Below are positions 11,625-39,636 of a stretch of 64,000 bases of DNA, in pieces. The DNA lies in assembly GCA_016192455.1 (NCBI GenBank), contig JACPUC010000029.1, positions 62,001 to 126,000 of the forward strand. Reading direction: 5' to 3'. The notes under the pieces are model-generated. The model was given only the letters and a program-made list of their open reading frames with translations, had not been told where the DNA came from and did not search any database. Origin of the DNA: Candidatus Tectimicrobiota bacterium. Lineage in GTDB: Bacteria > JACPUC01. Position 1 is the first letter of the stretch. Each line of letters starts with the position of its first letter. The translations under genes were made by a program, and so were the position numbers.

Positions 11625-13715
11625 TTAGCTCGCCTCCGCCCCGGCCCGCTCCACCTCCACAAGGTTCGTGTAGTAAGTGGCGCCGCCGCCCAGGTCGGCG
11701 AGGCGTTCGCTGGTGAGGCGGTTGATGTTGGCGCCCTCGGGGCAGTGCGCGCTCCACCAGGTCTTGAAGGCCATGGCGACGCCGGGCTTGGTGCGCTCGC
11801 CGACCTGGGCGTAGAGGCGGCACTCGCCGCGGTCGTTGAAGACGCGCACCAGGTCGCCGTCGGCGATGCCGCGCGCCGCCGCATCGACGGGGTTGAGCTG
11901 GAGCACCGGCCGCTGCGCCTTGCGCAGCATGGTCGGCAGGTTGGCGAAGCTGGAGTTGCAGAAGTGCTTCGCCGAGCTGTTGACCAGCCGCAGCGGGTAG
12001 CGCGCGATGAGTTCCGGCGTGCGCTCGGCGCCTTCCGCCGGCGGCTCGTAGCCGGGAAGCGGATCGCGCCCCTGGCCCTCGAGGGCCGCCGAGTAGAGCT
12101 CGATCTTCCCCGACGGCGTGCGGGGAGCGCCGGCGGCGAACGGCGTCGGGCCGATCTCCAGCTTCACCCACCCCTCCTGCCGCAGGCGCTCCAGGCTGAC
12201 GCCGCGCAGCCGCGGCTGCGTCCCGGCCAGCGCCTGGCGGATGAGATCCTCATCGCTGTCGCGGAAGGCCGGTTCGTCGAATCCCATGGCGCGGGCCAGG
12301 AGGCGGAAGACCTCCATGTTGCTCTTGCACTCGCCGGGCGGCTCGACCACCTTCTCGCCAAGCATGAGGTAGGGGTGCCAGTACGACTTGTAGAGGTCCG
12401 CATGCTCCACCATCATCGTGGCCGGCAGCAAAATGTCGGCGTAGCGCGCCGTCTCGGTCATCATCTGCTCGTGCACCGCCAGGAAGAGGTCCTGGCGCCG
12501 CAGCCCGGCCAGCACGCGGTTCTGGTTCGGCGCCACCGCCAGGGGGTTGCTGTTGTAGACGAACATCGCCGCAATCGGCGGCTGGGCCTCGTGGAGGACG
12601 CGCGCCAGCTCCACCATGTTGATGGTGCGCGGGCGTCCTTGCATGAGGTCGGGGCGGTGCAGGGCGGCGAGGTTCAACGGCGCGGCGGCGGCGTTCGAGC
12701 CGCAGATGCCGCCGCCGAGGTCGCGCCAGGCGCCGACGAGCGCCGGGAGGACGGCGATGGCGCGGTGCGTCTGGCCGCCGTTGCTCTGGCGCTGCAAGCC
12801 GGTGCCGAGGCGGATGAGCGCCGGGCGCGTGGTGGCGTAGCGGCGCGCCACCTGCTCGAGCACGGCGACCCCGATGCCGGTGATCCGCGCCGTGCGCTCC
12901 GGGGGATACTCCTTCAGCCGCACCTCGAGGGCCTCGAACCCCACCGTGGCCTGGCGCAGAAACTCCACGTCGTGCAGGCCGTCGCGCACGATGAGGTGCA
13001 TGAGGCCGAGGGCAAGGGCGGCGTCCGTGCCCGGATTGGGCTGCAGGAAGAGGTGCGAGGCGTCGCTCATGCGGGTGCGGTGCACGTTGATGTCGATGGT
13101 GAAGGCGCCGTTCTCCCGCGCCTTCTGCCAGAACGGCAGGTAGTGGATATTCGTGCTCAGAGGGTTGGCTCCCCAGGTGATGAGGAGCCTGGCGTGCGGG
13201 ATGAGCTCCGGGTCGATGCTCAGCGCCTCGCCCATGGTGGCGTTGTAGGCGGCCCGACCGGCGGTGGTGCAGATGGTGCGGTCGAGGAGGGAGGCGCCGA
13301 GACGATGGAAGAAGCGCCGGTCCATCGACATGTTGGCGAGGACGCCCTCATTGCCGGCATAGCTGTAGGGGAGAATCGACTCCGGCCCGAACTCCGCCGC
13401 GGCGGCGCGGAAGCGCGCGGCGATGGTGGTGACGGCCTCGTCCCAGGAGATGCGGGCAAACCGCCCTTCGCCCTTGGCGCCGACGCGCTTCTGCGGCTCG
13501 AGGAGGCGGTCGCGGCTGGTCAGGCGCTCGGGGTAGTGGTTCACCTTGGCGCACAGGAACCCCTGCGTCACCGGATGCCGAGGATCGCCTTCCACCTTCA
13601 CGACCTGCCCGTCGCGGACCTGCACGAGCAGGGCGCAGGTGTCCGGACAGTCATGGGGACAGACGCTGCGTTGCACCACGGTGGGCGCGGCGGCGCTGCT
13701 GAGATACGGGGCCAT
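11625..13715 (-). CDS. molybdopterin oxidoreductase catalytic subunit (DMSO reductase family)
   Basis: 696 residues from the ATG at 13715, chosen because GAGGAG lies about 6 nt upstream (the frame extends 10 codons further). The N-terminal 4Fe-4S motif reads CPHDCPDTC, with the fourth Cys in GFLCAK. The Mo-bis-PGD domains follow: SWDEAVTTIA, the probable metal-ligand Cys in RTICTTAGRAAYNATMG, WGANPLSTNIH, and the C-terminal dinucleotide-binding domain with LNPVDAAARGIADGDLVRVF. No signal peptide, partner Fe-S subunit or membrane subunit is adjacent, so substrate and electron partner are open. Confidence 0.88.
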   Translation of the reverse strand: MAPYLSSAAAPTVVQRSVCPHDCPDTCALLVQVRDGQVVKVEGDPRHPVTQGFLCAKVNHYPERLTSRDRLLEPQKRVGAKGEGRFARISWDEAVTTIAARFRAAAAEFGPESILPYSYAGNEGVLANMSMDRRFFHRLGASLLDRTICTTAGRAAYNATMGEALSIDPELIPHARLLITWGANPLSTNIHYLPFWQKARENGAFTIDINVHRTRMSDASHLFLQPNPGTDAALALGLMHLIVRDGLHDVEFLRQATVGFEALEVRLKEYPPERTARITGIGVAVLEQVARRYATTRPALIRLGTGLQRQSNGGQTHRAIAVLPALVGAWRDLGGGICGSNAAAAPLNLAALHRPDLMQGRPRTINMVELARVLHEAQPPIAAMFVYNSNPLAVAPNQNRVLAGLRRQDLFLAVHEQMMTETARYADILLPATMMVEHADLYKSYWHPYLMLGEKVVEPPGECKSNMEVFRLLARAMGFDEPAFRDSDEDLIRQALAGTQPRLRGVSLERLRQEGWVKLEIGPTPFAAGAPRTPSGKIELYSAALEGQGRDPLPGYEPPAEGAERTPELIARYPLRLVNSSAKHFCNSSFANLPTMLRKAQRPVLQLNPVDAAARGIADGDLVRVFNDRGECRLYAQVGERTKPGVAMAFKTWWSAHCPEGANINRLTSERLADLGGGATYYTNLVEVERAGAEAS

Positions 13716-27927: not shown

Positions 27928-28839
27928 TCACGCGGTCGCCGACTCCACCGTGGGTATGGCGAAGGCAGTGCTTGCGAGTTCGGCGAGGGGGATGGGCCGG
28001 CGGCCTAAACTCGTGGAGAAGAGCTCCATCTCTCTGCTCAAACTGGCGAGGTCGAGCTTCGCGACCCATCTGTGAGCCAGGCGGTCGTAGCATTCCTCGG
28101 CGAGGTCGCGCTGCAGGTGCCATCCTTCCATGAGGTAGGCCACGCTGGCTGGCCTGTCTGTCCGCATGGCTTGCACGCAGGCCGTGTACCCATGGATGAG
28201 CCGTTGCACGACCTCGGGGTGATCCCTGATGAACCGCTCCGTTGTCACCAGCGCATGGCTTGCCCGGCCGAAGAATGCCTGACTCAAATCCGCGACGACT
28301 CGAAAGCCGGCGCGCAGCAGGGCGAAACATTCGGGCGGACTCGACACCAGGCCTCTACATTGCCCAGTCGTGAAGGAGGTAAGGCGTTCCTCCGGGGTAT
28401 AGGCGCGCTGGTGGGCGGGGAAGGCGACGTCCAGTCCCGGCCTCAGTCCGTGCTGGCGCAAGAGGAACGCCGCATGCCACTCCGGCATGGCGCCCCTGGC
28501 AGGCGTCATGAGCGCGGCGCCGCGCAAATCCTCGAGCCGCCCCACCTCTGCCGGCGCCACGATGAGATGGAGTGGATTTTCAACTACCTGCACGATGATC
28601 TTCAAGCCGCGTTCGCCAGCGAAGGCTTTCTCGAAGACCCCCTCGGTTGAACCTCCGAAGTCCGCCTCGCCCGAGAGGACTGCTTCCACATTCTGGATGT
28701 CCGCGCGCACCATGACCTCGGCTGCCACACCCTGGGCGGCGAAGAAGCCTTGTTCCACCGCCATCCAGAGGGGCGCGATGTTGAGAGAATGAGCCATCAG
28801 CGCCAGGCGCACGGAATGCGATTCTCCTGCGCGCGCCAC
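27928..28839 (-). CDS. NMT1/THI5-like substrate-binding domain protein
   Basis: 303 residues from a GTG at 28839, 6 nt after AGGAGG; the frame also opens at an ATG 8 codons upstream without a site. The sequence begins almost directly with the binding domain (VRLALMAHSLNIAPLWMAVE, FFAAQGVAAEVMVRADIQN, VLSGEADFGGSTEGVFEKAF) and has no signal peptide. Similar leaderless NMT1-like proteins are known, but export would then need another route. The ligand is unknown and no ABC partners are adjacent. Confidence 0.83.
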   Translation of the reverse strand: MARAGESHSVRLALMAHSLNIAPLWMAVEQGFFAAQGVAAEVMVRADIQNVEAVLSGEADFGGSTEGVFEKAFAGERGLKIIVQVVENPLHLIVAPAEVGRLEDLRGAALMTPARGAMPEWHAAFLLRQHGLRPGLDVAFPAHQRAYTPEERLTSFTTGQCRGLVSSPPECFALLRAGFRVVADLSQAFFGRASHALVTTERFIRDHPEVVQRLIHGYTACVQAMRTDRPASVAYLMEGWHLQRDLAEECYDRLAHRWVAKLDLASLSREMELFSTSLGRRPIPLAELASTAFAIPTVESATA

Positions 28840-36055: not shown

Positions 36056-36288
36056 ACCTTTCGGGCGCGGACCATCGGCGCGCCGCCTTCTGCCCCACCG
36101 CGTGACGTGCTACACTTTTCATCATTGGAGCGTGCTTCCGGGCTACCCTGGGGGTTGGCGCGCGCGCCGCGAGGCGCACCGGCCTCGCGCCGCTCGCTCG
36201 CGCCCAGCCGGGAGAAGCGTTGGCGACCTTGCCGCTCCGGACCCGTAGCAGGGCAGCCGCCGCACGGGGTATGAGAAAGGATGCGCGC

Positions 36289-38127
36289 ATGCGACCGCGT
36301 CTCGCCAGTCCCGCCCGCTGGACCGACTTCTCTTACACCCAGGCGCGCATCGACCTGACCACGCAGGAGGTGCGGATCGAGGAAAAGCCCTGCGCCGACC
36401 TCGAAGACTTCCTGGGCGGCATCGGGCGCTCCCTGAAAATCCTCGGCGGCGTGCGGGTGCGTGATCCCTTCGATCCCGCCAGCCCGCTCATCATGAACCT
36501 CGGCGTCCTGACGGGAACGAACGCCATGACGGGGCTGCGCGTCTTCTTCAGCGCTTACAGCCCGTTGAAAGTCTCCAACCGGGGGCTGCCTGCCGTGACG
36601 TGGTCCACGGCGAGCGGCAAGTTCGGCGCCAAGCTGCACTGGCTCGGCCTCGATGAGGCGATCTTCGTCGGGCGGGCGGAGCGGCCGCTCACCCTGGTCT
36701 TCTCGGCGGCCCGCGACGGCGGCGTGACGGTGCGTTTCGAGGACGCCGCCGGCCTGCGCGGCATGACGACGCACGACAAGATCATGATGCTCTTGGACCG
36801 CTACCCGCGGGCGCACTTCGCGGCGCTCGGCCCCGCCGGGGAGAACTGGAGCGGCAGCCGCTTCGCCGCCATCGCCGTGAGCACCGAGAACCAGCTCCGC
36901 TCGCGCGATGACAAACCGCGCTTCGCCGGCCGGGGCGGCATGGGCAACCTCCTCGGCTCGAAGAACGTGCTGGCCATGGTCGCCGACGTTGAGGACCGAC
37001 AGGAGGGGCGTCCCAGCGCCAGGCTGGCGGCGATCAACAAGGAAATCGCGCGGGGCAACGGCTCGCGCAAGTATCGCGACGCGGACAAGGGCGGCGGCAT
37101 CGGCGGCACGATGACGAACTACGAGCCGCTCTTCGAGGTGGGGGCGCTGCCGGAGAACAACTTCTGGGCCAGCGGCACGGCGGCGCCGAAGGGTCTCTTC
37201 CGCGGCGTCATCGAGCAGCAGTTCGTGATCAAGGACGAGTCGTGCTACAAGTGCGGCATCCTCTGCCACAAGAATGTCTACGAGAAGGCGACGCCTGGGG
37301 AATCAAGCGGCCGCTTCCGCGCCAAGTTCGACTACGAGCCGCTCAACCTGTTGGCGACCAACCTCGGCATCCACGATGCCGAGTCAGCCTGCCGGCTCGT
37401 GGCCCGCTGCGACCTCCTGGGGTTCGATGCGATCAGCCTCGGCGTCACCCTCGGCTACGTCATGGAGTACAACCGCCGCCACCCCGAGGCGCCGATCGCC
37501 GGCGGCGTGGGCTTCGGCGATGCCGAGGGGGCGTTGAAGATCATCGAGAAGACCGCCCGCGGCGACATGCCGCAGATCGGCCAGGGGGTGAAACGCCTCT
37601 CCGAGGAGCTGGGCGAGACGGCCTATGCCATGCAGGTGAAAGGGCTGGAGCTGCCGGCCTACCTGCCGGAGACCAACCCGGGCTATCCCTTCGCCCTCTC
37701 CGGCGGCCACATGACCATGCGCACCTTCCTGCTGGCCGTCCTCGTCGGCGATTTCAGCATCGAGTACTGGCAGGAAGCCATCCTCGGCCCCGGCCTGCAG
37801 TACCTGCGCGATGACCTCGTCGGCCTGTGCAAGTTCTGCGGCTTGACGGACCCGCCGGTGGCCGAGGCGCTGACCGAGGTGACCGGCGTGCCGATCAGCG
37901 TCGAGGAGATGCGGGCCGCGGTCTACCGCACCTACCTGCGCGGCTTCGCCCTCGAGCGCCGCCAGGGCTACACCTGGGAGGAGTACACCATCCCGGCGCG
38001 CTCCTTCACGCCGAACGAGCACCTGAAGCTGCCCCACTTCGTCACGCCGGAGTTTCTCGAGGAGCTGAAGCGCCGCGTCATCGGCAAGCTGGATGCCTCG
38101 ATGGCGGAGCTGGGAATCAGCGCCTGA
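36289..38127 (+). CDS. aldehyde:ferredoxin oxidoreductase family protein (tungsten/molybdenum)
   Basis: 612 residues from the ATG at 36289 (AAAGGA upstream; ATGs at 36220 and 36271 are in frame). The N-terminal pterin domain contains FLGGIGRSLKILGGVRVRDP and FSAYSPLKVSNRG. The 4Fe-4S Cys are C319, C322, C326 (CYKCGILC) with a later Cys pair C514/C517 (LCKFC) supplying the fourth ligand. The family oxidises aldehydes to acids with ferredoxin, using a W- or Mo-bis-pterin. No MoaD or ferredoxin gene is adjacent; physiological substrate unknown. Confidence 0.9.
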   Translation: MRPRLASPARWTDFSYTQARIDLTTQEVRIEEKPCADLEDFLGGIGRSLKILGGVRVRDPFDPASPLIMNLGVLTGTNAMTGLRVFFSAYSPLKVSNRGLPAVTWSTASGKFGAKLHWLGLDEAIFVGRAERPLTLVFSAARDGGVTVRFEDAAGLRGMTTHDKIMMLLDRYPRAHFAALGPAGENWSGSRFAAIAVSTENQLRSRDDKPRFAGRGGMGNLLGSKNVLAMVADVEDRQEGRPSARLAAINKEIARGNGSRKYRDADKGGGIGGTMTNYEPLFEVGALPENNFWASGTAAPKGLFRGVIEQQFVIKDESCYKCGILCHKNVYEKATPGESSGRFRAKFDYEPLNLLATNLGIHDAESACRLVARCDLLGFDAISLGVTLGYVMEYNRRHPEAPIAGGVGFGDAEGALKIIEKTARGDMPQIGQGVKRLSEELGETAYAMQVKGLELPAYLPETNPGYPFALSGGHMTMRTFLLAVLVGDFSIEYWQEAILGPGLQYLRDDLVGLCKFCGLTDPPVAEALTEVTGVPISVEEMRAAVYRTYLRGFALERRQGYTWEEYTIPARSFTPNEHLKLPHFVTPEFLEELKRRVIGKLDASMAELGISA

Positions 38128-38349: not shown

Positions 38350-38676
38350 CTACCGCGCCCCGGCGCCCCGCATGATCGCCGACAAGGCGCCGATCACGAT
38401 GTCCTGGGCGCGGACCTCGTTGGCGTTGTCGCTCGGCTGGCTCTTCAGCCACCAGATGGCCTTCTGCAGGGCGACCCGGGCGCAAAGCTCGCTGCGACAC
38501 TCGATGAGCTGGCGCTCCACCTTCTCCATCATCGTGCCGTGCTTCTGGATGTACTGCACCGCCAGGTTCGCTTCCAGGTCGGGACCGCGCCCGCCTTGCG
38601 CCGCCGCCGGCGGGGCGCCGAGGGCGAGGGCAAGGAGGGCAAGCAACAGCGCCACCAGGGTCATGCGGGGCATCAT
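38350..38676 (-). CDS. small exported hypothetical protein
   Basis: 108 residues. Signal peptide MMPRMTLVALLLALLALALG with AAAQ cleavage near 27. The mature part (about 80 residues) is helical with two Cys (IECRSELCARVALQKAIWWL). It starts 18 bases after the stop of the probable selenoprotein at 38695 and is most likely in the same operon. Not a family I recognise; a periplasmic helper is possible but unproven. Confidence 0.65.
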   Translation of the reverse strand: MMPRMTLVALLLALLALALGAPPAAAQGGRGPDLEANLAVQYIQKHGTMMEKVERQLIECRSELCARVALQKAIWWLKSQPSDNANEVRAQDIVIGALSAIMRGAGAR

Positions 38677-38694: not shown

Positions 38695-39327
38695 TCAGCG
38701 CTTCAGGGCCGTGAAGGGATCGCCCATCGGCCGAGCGTCCACCTTGATGGTCGGCCCGTCGCCGAAACCGAGGAACTTCGACCATTCGACGTAGTGCTCC
38801 TCCAGCTCGATGCCGAGGGCGTCGGCCATGCGCGCCACGTAGTTGAACTGCGCGCACACCGCGGCGATCTCCAGCACCTGCAGGTCGCTGAAGCCGTTTT
38901 CGCGCAGGCTCTGCACGTCGGCCTCGGTCATCGACGAGGGAGAGAGGGTCATCTTCTCGACGTAGGCGATCATCGCCAGGTCGGCGGGGTCGGTGAGGAC
39001 GGACGAGGGGTCGGCGAGGAACTTCTTCACGACGTCGCCGTCCTTGCTCTCGAGGCTGCCACGGAGAAACTCCCCGTGCGTCGTCGTTCAGTAGCGGCAG
39101 TTGAGCAGCGCCGAGGTGTAGGACGAGATCATCTCCTCGCGGCGGCGTCCCAGCGAGGAGTTCCCGAAGGTGGTGGCGAAGACGAGGTTTGCCATGGCGT
39201 TGAACAGCGGCGGCTTCAGCGACATGCTGCGCATGATGCTTGGCACGTAGCCGCGCGCCGCCACGAACCTGTCGTACACCTCCTTCAGGTCCGGGGCCTG
39301 CTCAGGCGTCTGGGTCTTGATGTACAT
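38695..39327 (-). CDS. AhpD/carboxymuconolactone-decarboxylase-fold selenoprotein (in-frame TGA = Sec80)
   Basis: 210 residues if TGA at 39090-39088 is read as selenocysteine. The ATG at 39327 follows GGAGGAG. Upstream of the TGA: FVAARGYVPSIMRSMSLKPP and RRREEMISSYTSALLNCRY. Downstream, in the same frame: TTTHGEFLRGSLES, then DPADLAMIAYVEKMTL and EIAAVCAQFNYVARMADALG. All are peroxidase-related AhpD-family blocks. The TGA replaces the second Cys of the redox motif C-x-x-C-x-x-x-H, giving C77-R-Y-U80-T-T-T-H84. A stem-loop starts 9 nt after the TGA. The protein probably reduces peroxides or disulfides. The alternative is a nonsense mutation, but the exact position argues against it. Confidence 0.85.
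39060..39078 (-). promoter_or_regulatory. candidate bacterial SECIS element
   Basis: In the mRNA, 9 nt after the UGA, CACGGGGAGUUUCUCCGUG folds as CAC/GUG, a GG bulge, GGAG/CUCC and a UUU loop (or CACGG/CCGUG with a 9-nt loop beginning with G). The distance and size fit the hairpin that SelB recognises downstream of bacterial Sec codons. The first 9 spacer bases are an ACG triplet repeat. Confidence 0.6.
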
Positions 39328-39636
39328 GGGTGCTCCTCCTTCTCCGTGCGGAGGGTGAGCCGAGGGTGCTGCTCGGGAAAGGGACAACGAGCAAGACAGC
39401 GGCTGAAGGTCCTCAGTCTACCCCAGCAGTGGGGGAGCGGCAAGCGTGGCGGCCGGCGGGGGCGAAGCGCGGCGCTTGCTTGACAGCCGGCGCGCGGCCC
39501 ACCTAGATTTGCAGCAGAGCGGCGCCTCGGTGCGGCGAGCGGCCGGCTTCCTGGCTCGGTCGCGCGGTGCGGCGAGGGGGGAGCAGGTTGCAAGAAGGGC
39601 GTGGGGCGAGTTCAGCCCGCGCCAGAGGGGAAACCG

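Follow-up and report, generated by a model that had tools for sequence, protein, structure and literature searches.

On its minus strand, the window (the whole 64,000-nucleotide stretch of Candidatus Tectimicrobiota bacterium DNA analyzed here) carries an AhpD-like, peroxidase-related gene that is almost certainly intact, its product being a TIGR01926 family selenoprotein with one AhpD-fold domain. Its UGA codon 80 is predicted to be decoded as selenocysteine (Sec) by the organism's own SelA, SelB, SelD, and tRNA-Sec. A single frame runs from the ATG at 39327 to the TGA at 38697-38695 and is interrupted by one internal TGA (39090-39088); when TGA is translated as U, this codon becomes residue 80 in C77-R-Y-U80-T-T-T-H84. 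The features of the gene and of related genes are collected in Table 1.

Table 1. Features of the AhpD-like gene in the window and TGA-containing relatives in the same genome (G000; C numbers denote its contigs)
Feature	Position	Strand	Remarks
ahpD-like (TIGR01926, peroxidase-related) selenoprotein gene	38695..39327	-	210 amino acids with UGA read as Sec
In-frame TGA, predicted Sec80	39088..39090	-	aligned with the second, peroxidatic Cys of CxxC
Cys77 codon	39097..39099	-	predicted resolving Cys of CxxU (motif and 38-row alignment)
His84 codon	39076..39078	-	invariant in 38-row alignment; by spacing, the catalytic His of AhpD
Glu65 codon	39133..39135	-	invariant in 38-row alignment; 15 residues N-terminal of Sec80
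Shine-Dalgarno-like AAGGAGGAG	39333..39341	-	5 nt upstream of the ATG
Predicted bacterial SECIS hairpin CACGGGGA-GUU-UCUCCGUG	39060..39078	-	3-nt apical loop starting with G (39070)
AhpD paralogue CTFU	C23:164713		first half of a two-domain protein; second half has CPSL
AhpD paralogue SSHU (L023)	C2:30435-30941		Sec kept, first (resolving) Cys lost
AhpD/CMD paralogue CAYU	C3:17998
AhpD/CMD paralogue CPFU	C6:8713
Eight peroxiredoxin/thioredoxin/deiodinase-like TGA genes	C31:75970, C5:40802, C30:65892, C27:116562, C23:22490, C9:76107, C20:47929, C1:78518		PF00578-fold motifs with TGA: FUGDC, TPGU, WUKSC, WUPYC (twice), WUPKU, WUQSC, deiodinase-like ITUPPY

Reading frame, family, and active site

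A preliminary description of this DNA had joined two short frames into one continuous frame with a single TGA, assigned both flanks to the same family, and placed the TGA on the second Cys of a C-x-x-C-x-x-x-H motif; all three points held. Calling open reading frames (ORFs) with table 11 split the frame into a 99-amino-acid ORF (TTG start) and a 111-amino-acid ORF (GTG start), and neither half alone matched a Pfam family. Only the fused product matched PF02627 (CMD; E value of 2.5e-08), and it scored 101 bits against TIGR01926 over residues 11 to 174, above the curated cut-off of 81.8 bits, with a C-terminal extension (residues ~181 to 210) lying outside the model. The coding signal was strong on each side of the internal TGA (0.41 and 0.40), the strongest on both flanks among the 373 stops of the window that were compared, each having 40 open in-frame codons on either side. 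The second-ranked stop, at 38695, is the gene's own terminator, with the next gene in frame behind it. We rejected this TGA (38697-38695) as a second Sec codon, since the AhpD domain is already over at this point and a ribosome-binding-like AAAGGA is followed by an ATG at 38676 with a signal-peptide-like start. Scanning the window by coding signal for more Sec codons revealed none beyond 39090-39088 save a weak site at 28648 on the plus strand, which ranked third and was rejected because of its weak signal and its position antisense to another ORF.

The AlphaFold model of the protein displayed an all-helical AhpD fold (pLDDT of 90.9), and matches in the PDB were 6k40 (the best), 2prr, 3c1l, and 2oyo. 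The CxYC motif of the solved Cys homologues 6k40, 3c1l, and 2oyo aligned with C77-R-Y-U80. Both the score above the cut-off and the AhpD-type fold with C-x-x-C/U-x-x-x-H place the protein in TIGR01926. Across 38 aligned rows, only L59, E65, C/U80, H84, and R166 were invariant. The active-site residues of Mycobacterium tuberculosis AhpD are Glu118, Cys130, Cys133, and His137. The spacing of E65, C77, U80, and H84 equals that of these residues, and on this spacing we take Sec80 to correspond to the peroxidatic Cys133 and Cys77 to the resolving Cys130.

Conservation of the UGA and a covarying hairpin

The motif column held TGA in 35, Cys in 16, and neither in 6 of 57 AhpD homologue rows, which are related to one another and thus not independent; none of the 57 had a TGA outside this column. 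A survey of 386 genomes with the family alignment gave, among the matches listed, internal stops that were all TGA, save one TAG. The nearest relatives (SAR324, Nitrospinota, Chloroflexi, and proteobacterial metagenome-assembled genomes) all had TGA at the motif column. Scans of genome contigs and viral contigs with the single protein found no relative, whereas the alignment query did find relatives; no sequence found shared more than ~42% identity with the window protein. A maximum-likelihood tree placed the window protein inside a strongly supported 23-row clade, with its exact position there only loosely fixed. This clade comprised 17 Sec rows and 6 rows with neither TGA nor CxxC; in the limited sample of the tree, it included no CxxC row, and all 11 CxxC rows sat in two groups outside it. 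It is conceivable, if rather doubtful, that this clade became fixed on Sec, was duplicated in a selenoprotein-rich lineage, and forms a distinct Sec-dependent group with a chemistry unlike that of CxxC AhpD. The clade takes in the SSHU form and two-domain forms in which a Sec domain is joined to a degenerate domain lacking the second Cys.

Bacterial SECIS elements are modeled as hairpins with a small apical loop and a G in its first two positions, 16 to 37 nt from the UGA (PMC13188914). The window hairpin, whose 8-pair stem is capped by a GUU loop at a distance of 17 nt from the UGA, agrees with this model in loop size, G, and distance. It would direct Sec insertion at codon 80 from its position directly 3' of the UGA. 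At the same columns, 76.6% of the stem cells were paired in 31 distinct UGA genes, in comparison to 41.4% in 16 Cys genes. Among 30 Sec homologues, pair 17-27 in the middle of the stem was G-C in 16 to 17 UGA genes and C-G in 11; this swap changes Gly to Ala (GGN to GCN) and goes together with a synonymous switch of the Leu codon from CTC to CTG. The association of the Gly/Ala and Leu codons was significant in UGA genes (Fisher P value of 1e-5) and absent in Cys genes, and the covariation score was reached by none of 500 shuffles and was lower in every slid register; the relatedness of the genes inflates these statistics. The tree shows the Ala/CTG form on at least two branches. Folding energy separated UGA from Cys genes weakly when single sequences were considered (mean z score of -0.86 versus -0.12; P value of 0.02). 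The case for a SECIS element rests on comparison, because the folding energy of the window copy itself was not exceptional against synonymous shuffles (z score of -0.77, not significant). The covariation signal could help to spot SECIS elements in the AhpD-like family.

Selenocysteine use in the host genome

The preliminary description had further stated that AhpD-like CxxU selenoproteins are known from environmental sequences and that this organism uses selenocysteine, and both statements found support, the first in the literature and the second in a genome search; its further proposal that this copy is active stands as a prediction. The Sargasso Sea selenoproteome of 2005 included AhpD-like CxxU selenoproteins (PMC1088965), GOS data yielded AhpD-like 1 and 2 selenoproteins by the hundred (PMC2398784), and a table in a 2026 review gives TIGR01926 CxxU, with MCB9421940.1 (PMC13188914). 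Therefore, the enzyme type is already known and not new. The window protein shares the family model, the CxxU motif, and the SECIS-like hairpin directly downstream of the UGA with known TIGR01926 CxxU selenoproteins but differs in its low identity to any sequence found, its C-terminal extension, and its host lineage. It also shares a CxxU AhpD-type domain with NF041238 (AhpD_rel_CFYUT; hypothetical protein 1 of the Sargasso Sea), the C-terminal half of whose model it matches. However, NF041238 describes a two-part protein of ~357 amino acids, of which the window protein covers half, and the score of 73 bits against a cut-off of 175 bits places the window protein outside that family.

What is unusual is the host setting, a selenoprotein-rich genome that is the sole one of its phylum among the genomes compared. 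This genome (4.46 Mb in 31 contigs, 88% complete) encodes SelA (596 bits) and, adjoining it on contig C23, a full-length SelB with GTPase, beta-barrel, and C-terminal winged-helix domains, both without an in-frame TGA. It also encodes a tRNA-Sec with the anticodon TCA and SelD (389 bits), which has its own in-frame TGA in the motif A-G-U-A-A-K. The AhpD-like gene thus combines a UGA aligned with the catalytic Cys of its homologues with a host that possesses SelA, SelB, SelD, and tRNA-Sec, and Sec would be expected to be inserted in vivo. A former CxxC gene whose Cys codon mutated to TGA, with loss of the full-length protein, could also give the observed frame, as TGA is one base from TGC and TGT and terminates translation under table 11. 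Such a pseudogene is nonetheless very unlikely: the sequence is strongly coding both before and after the TGA, 35 homologue rows drawn from many lineages carry TGA in that column, the Sec machinery is complete, and the hairpin covaries.

At least five AhpD/CMD genes of the genome, the window gene included, have a TGA at the redox motif. An in-frame TGA was also found in 8 of 13 PF00578 matches, always at the catalytic position, and the WUPKU gene carries two. Together with selD, at least 14 genes contain an in-frame TGA at redox positions (5 AhpD/CMD and 8 PF00578 genes plus selD; few families were searched), and the genome looks selenoprotein rich; a search for SelW-like proteins (PF10262) gave no match. 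A sequencing or assembly error in one base of an ordinary Cys codon is likewise very unlikely, if anything more so: four other AhpD/CMD genes would need the same error at the motif column, eight PF00578 genes would need it at their catalytic position, and selD and homologues from other assemblies would need it as well. A genetic code in which UGA specifies a standard amino acid such as Trp or Gly (codes 4/25), so that residue 80 is not Sec, would accommodate the several in-frame TGAs of the genome but is barely credible, since 17 molybdopterin-oxidoreductase matches, i.e., large ordinary genes, contained no TGA, selA and selB lack it, every inspected in-frame TGA falls on a redox-active Cys column, and the AhpD-like gene itself terminates with TGA. 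With UGA read as Sec, standard gene calling splits the AhpD-like gene and would hide an intact redox enzyme, as it would for at least a dozen other genes of this genome. The case documents large-scale selenocysteine use in a lineage without another genome among those compared. Misbinning is a residual possibility at 88% completeness and 31 contigs, though the Sec genes are spread over several long contigs.

Two-domain AhpD proteins were observed in several lineages (L022:820-2049, corresponding to C23 ~164.0 to 165.3 kb, and L033, L034, L035, and L039). In these, a Sec domain precedes another AhpD domain, which lacks both the second Cys and a TGA.

Predicted chemistry and neighboring genes

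The best match of the window protein in both sequence and fold is the AhpD-like protein DR_1765 of Deinococcus radiodurans (PDB 6k40), with 31% identity and TM scores of 0.77/0.86; DR_1765 has CxxC and no Sec, in contrast to the CxxU of the window protein. Deleting DR_1765 makes cells sensitive to H2O2, and complementation by CxxC mutants is much weaker (PMC8945050). The AhpD fold and this match make selenol-based reduction of a peroxide or disulfide the most likely role. The enzyme is most likely a thiol/selenol peroxidase or disulfide reductase in which Sec80 would stand in for the peroxidatic Cys of the C-x-x-C-x-x-x-H site. The Sec80 selenolate, helped by His84 and Glu65, would attack the peroxide (or disulfide) substrate, a selenenylsulfide would then form between Sec80 and Cys77, and a lipoyl- or thioredoxin-type electron donor would regenerate Sec80.

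The genes around the AhpD-like gene (the 108-amino-acid protein, proA, and the aldehyde ferredoxin oxidoreductase [AFOR] gene) displayed no clear functional link to it. A 108-amino-acid protein with a signal-peptide-like start is encoded in frame just 3' of its stop (38350-38676, minus strand) and had no Pfam match. An AFOR family gene lies downstream on the opposite strand (36220-38127, plus strand), and proA lies upstream and is divergent. Elsewhere in the window, a molybdopterin oxidoreductase domain without an in-frame TGA is encoded on the minus strand at 12291-13508 (C22:74291-75508).
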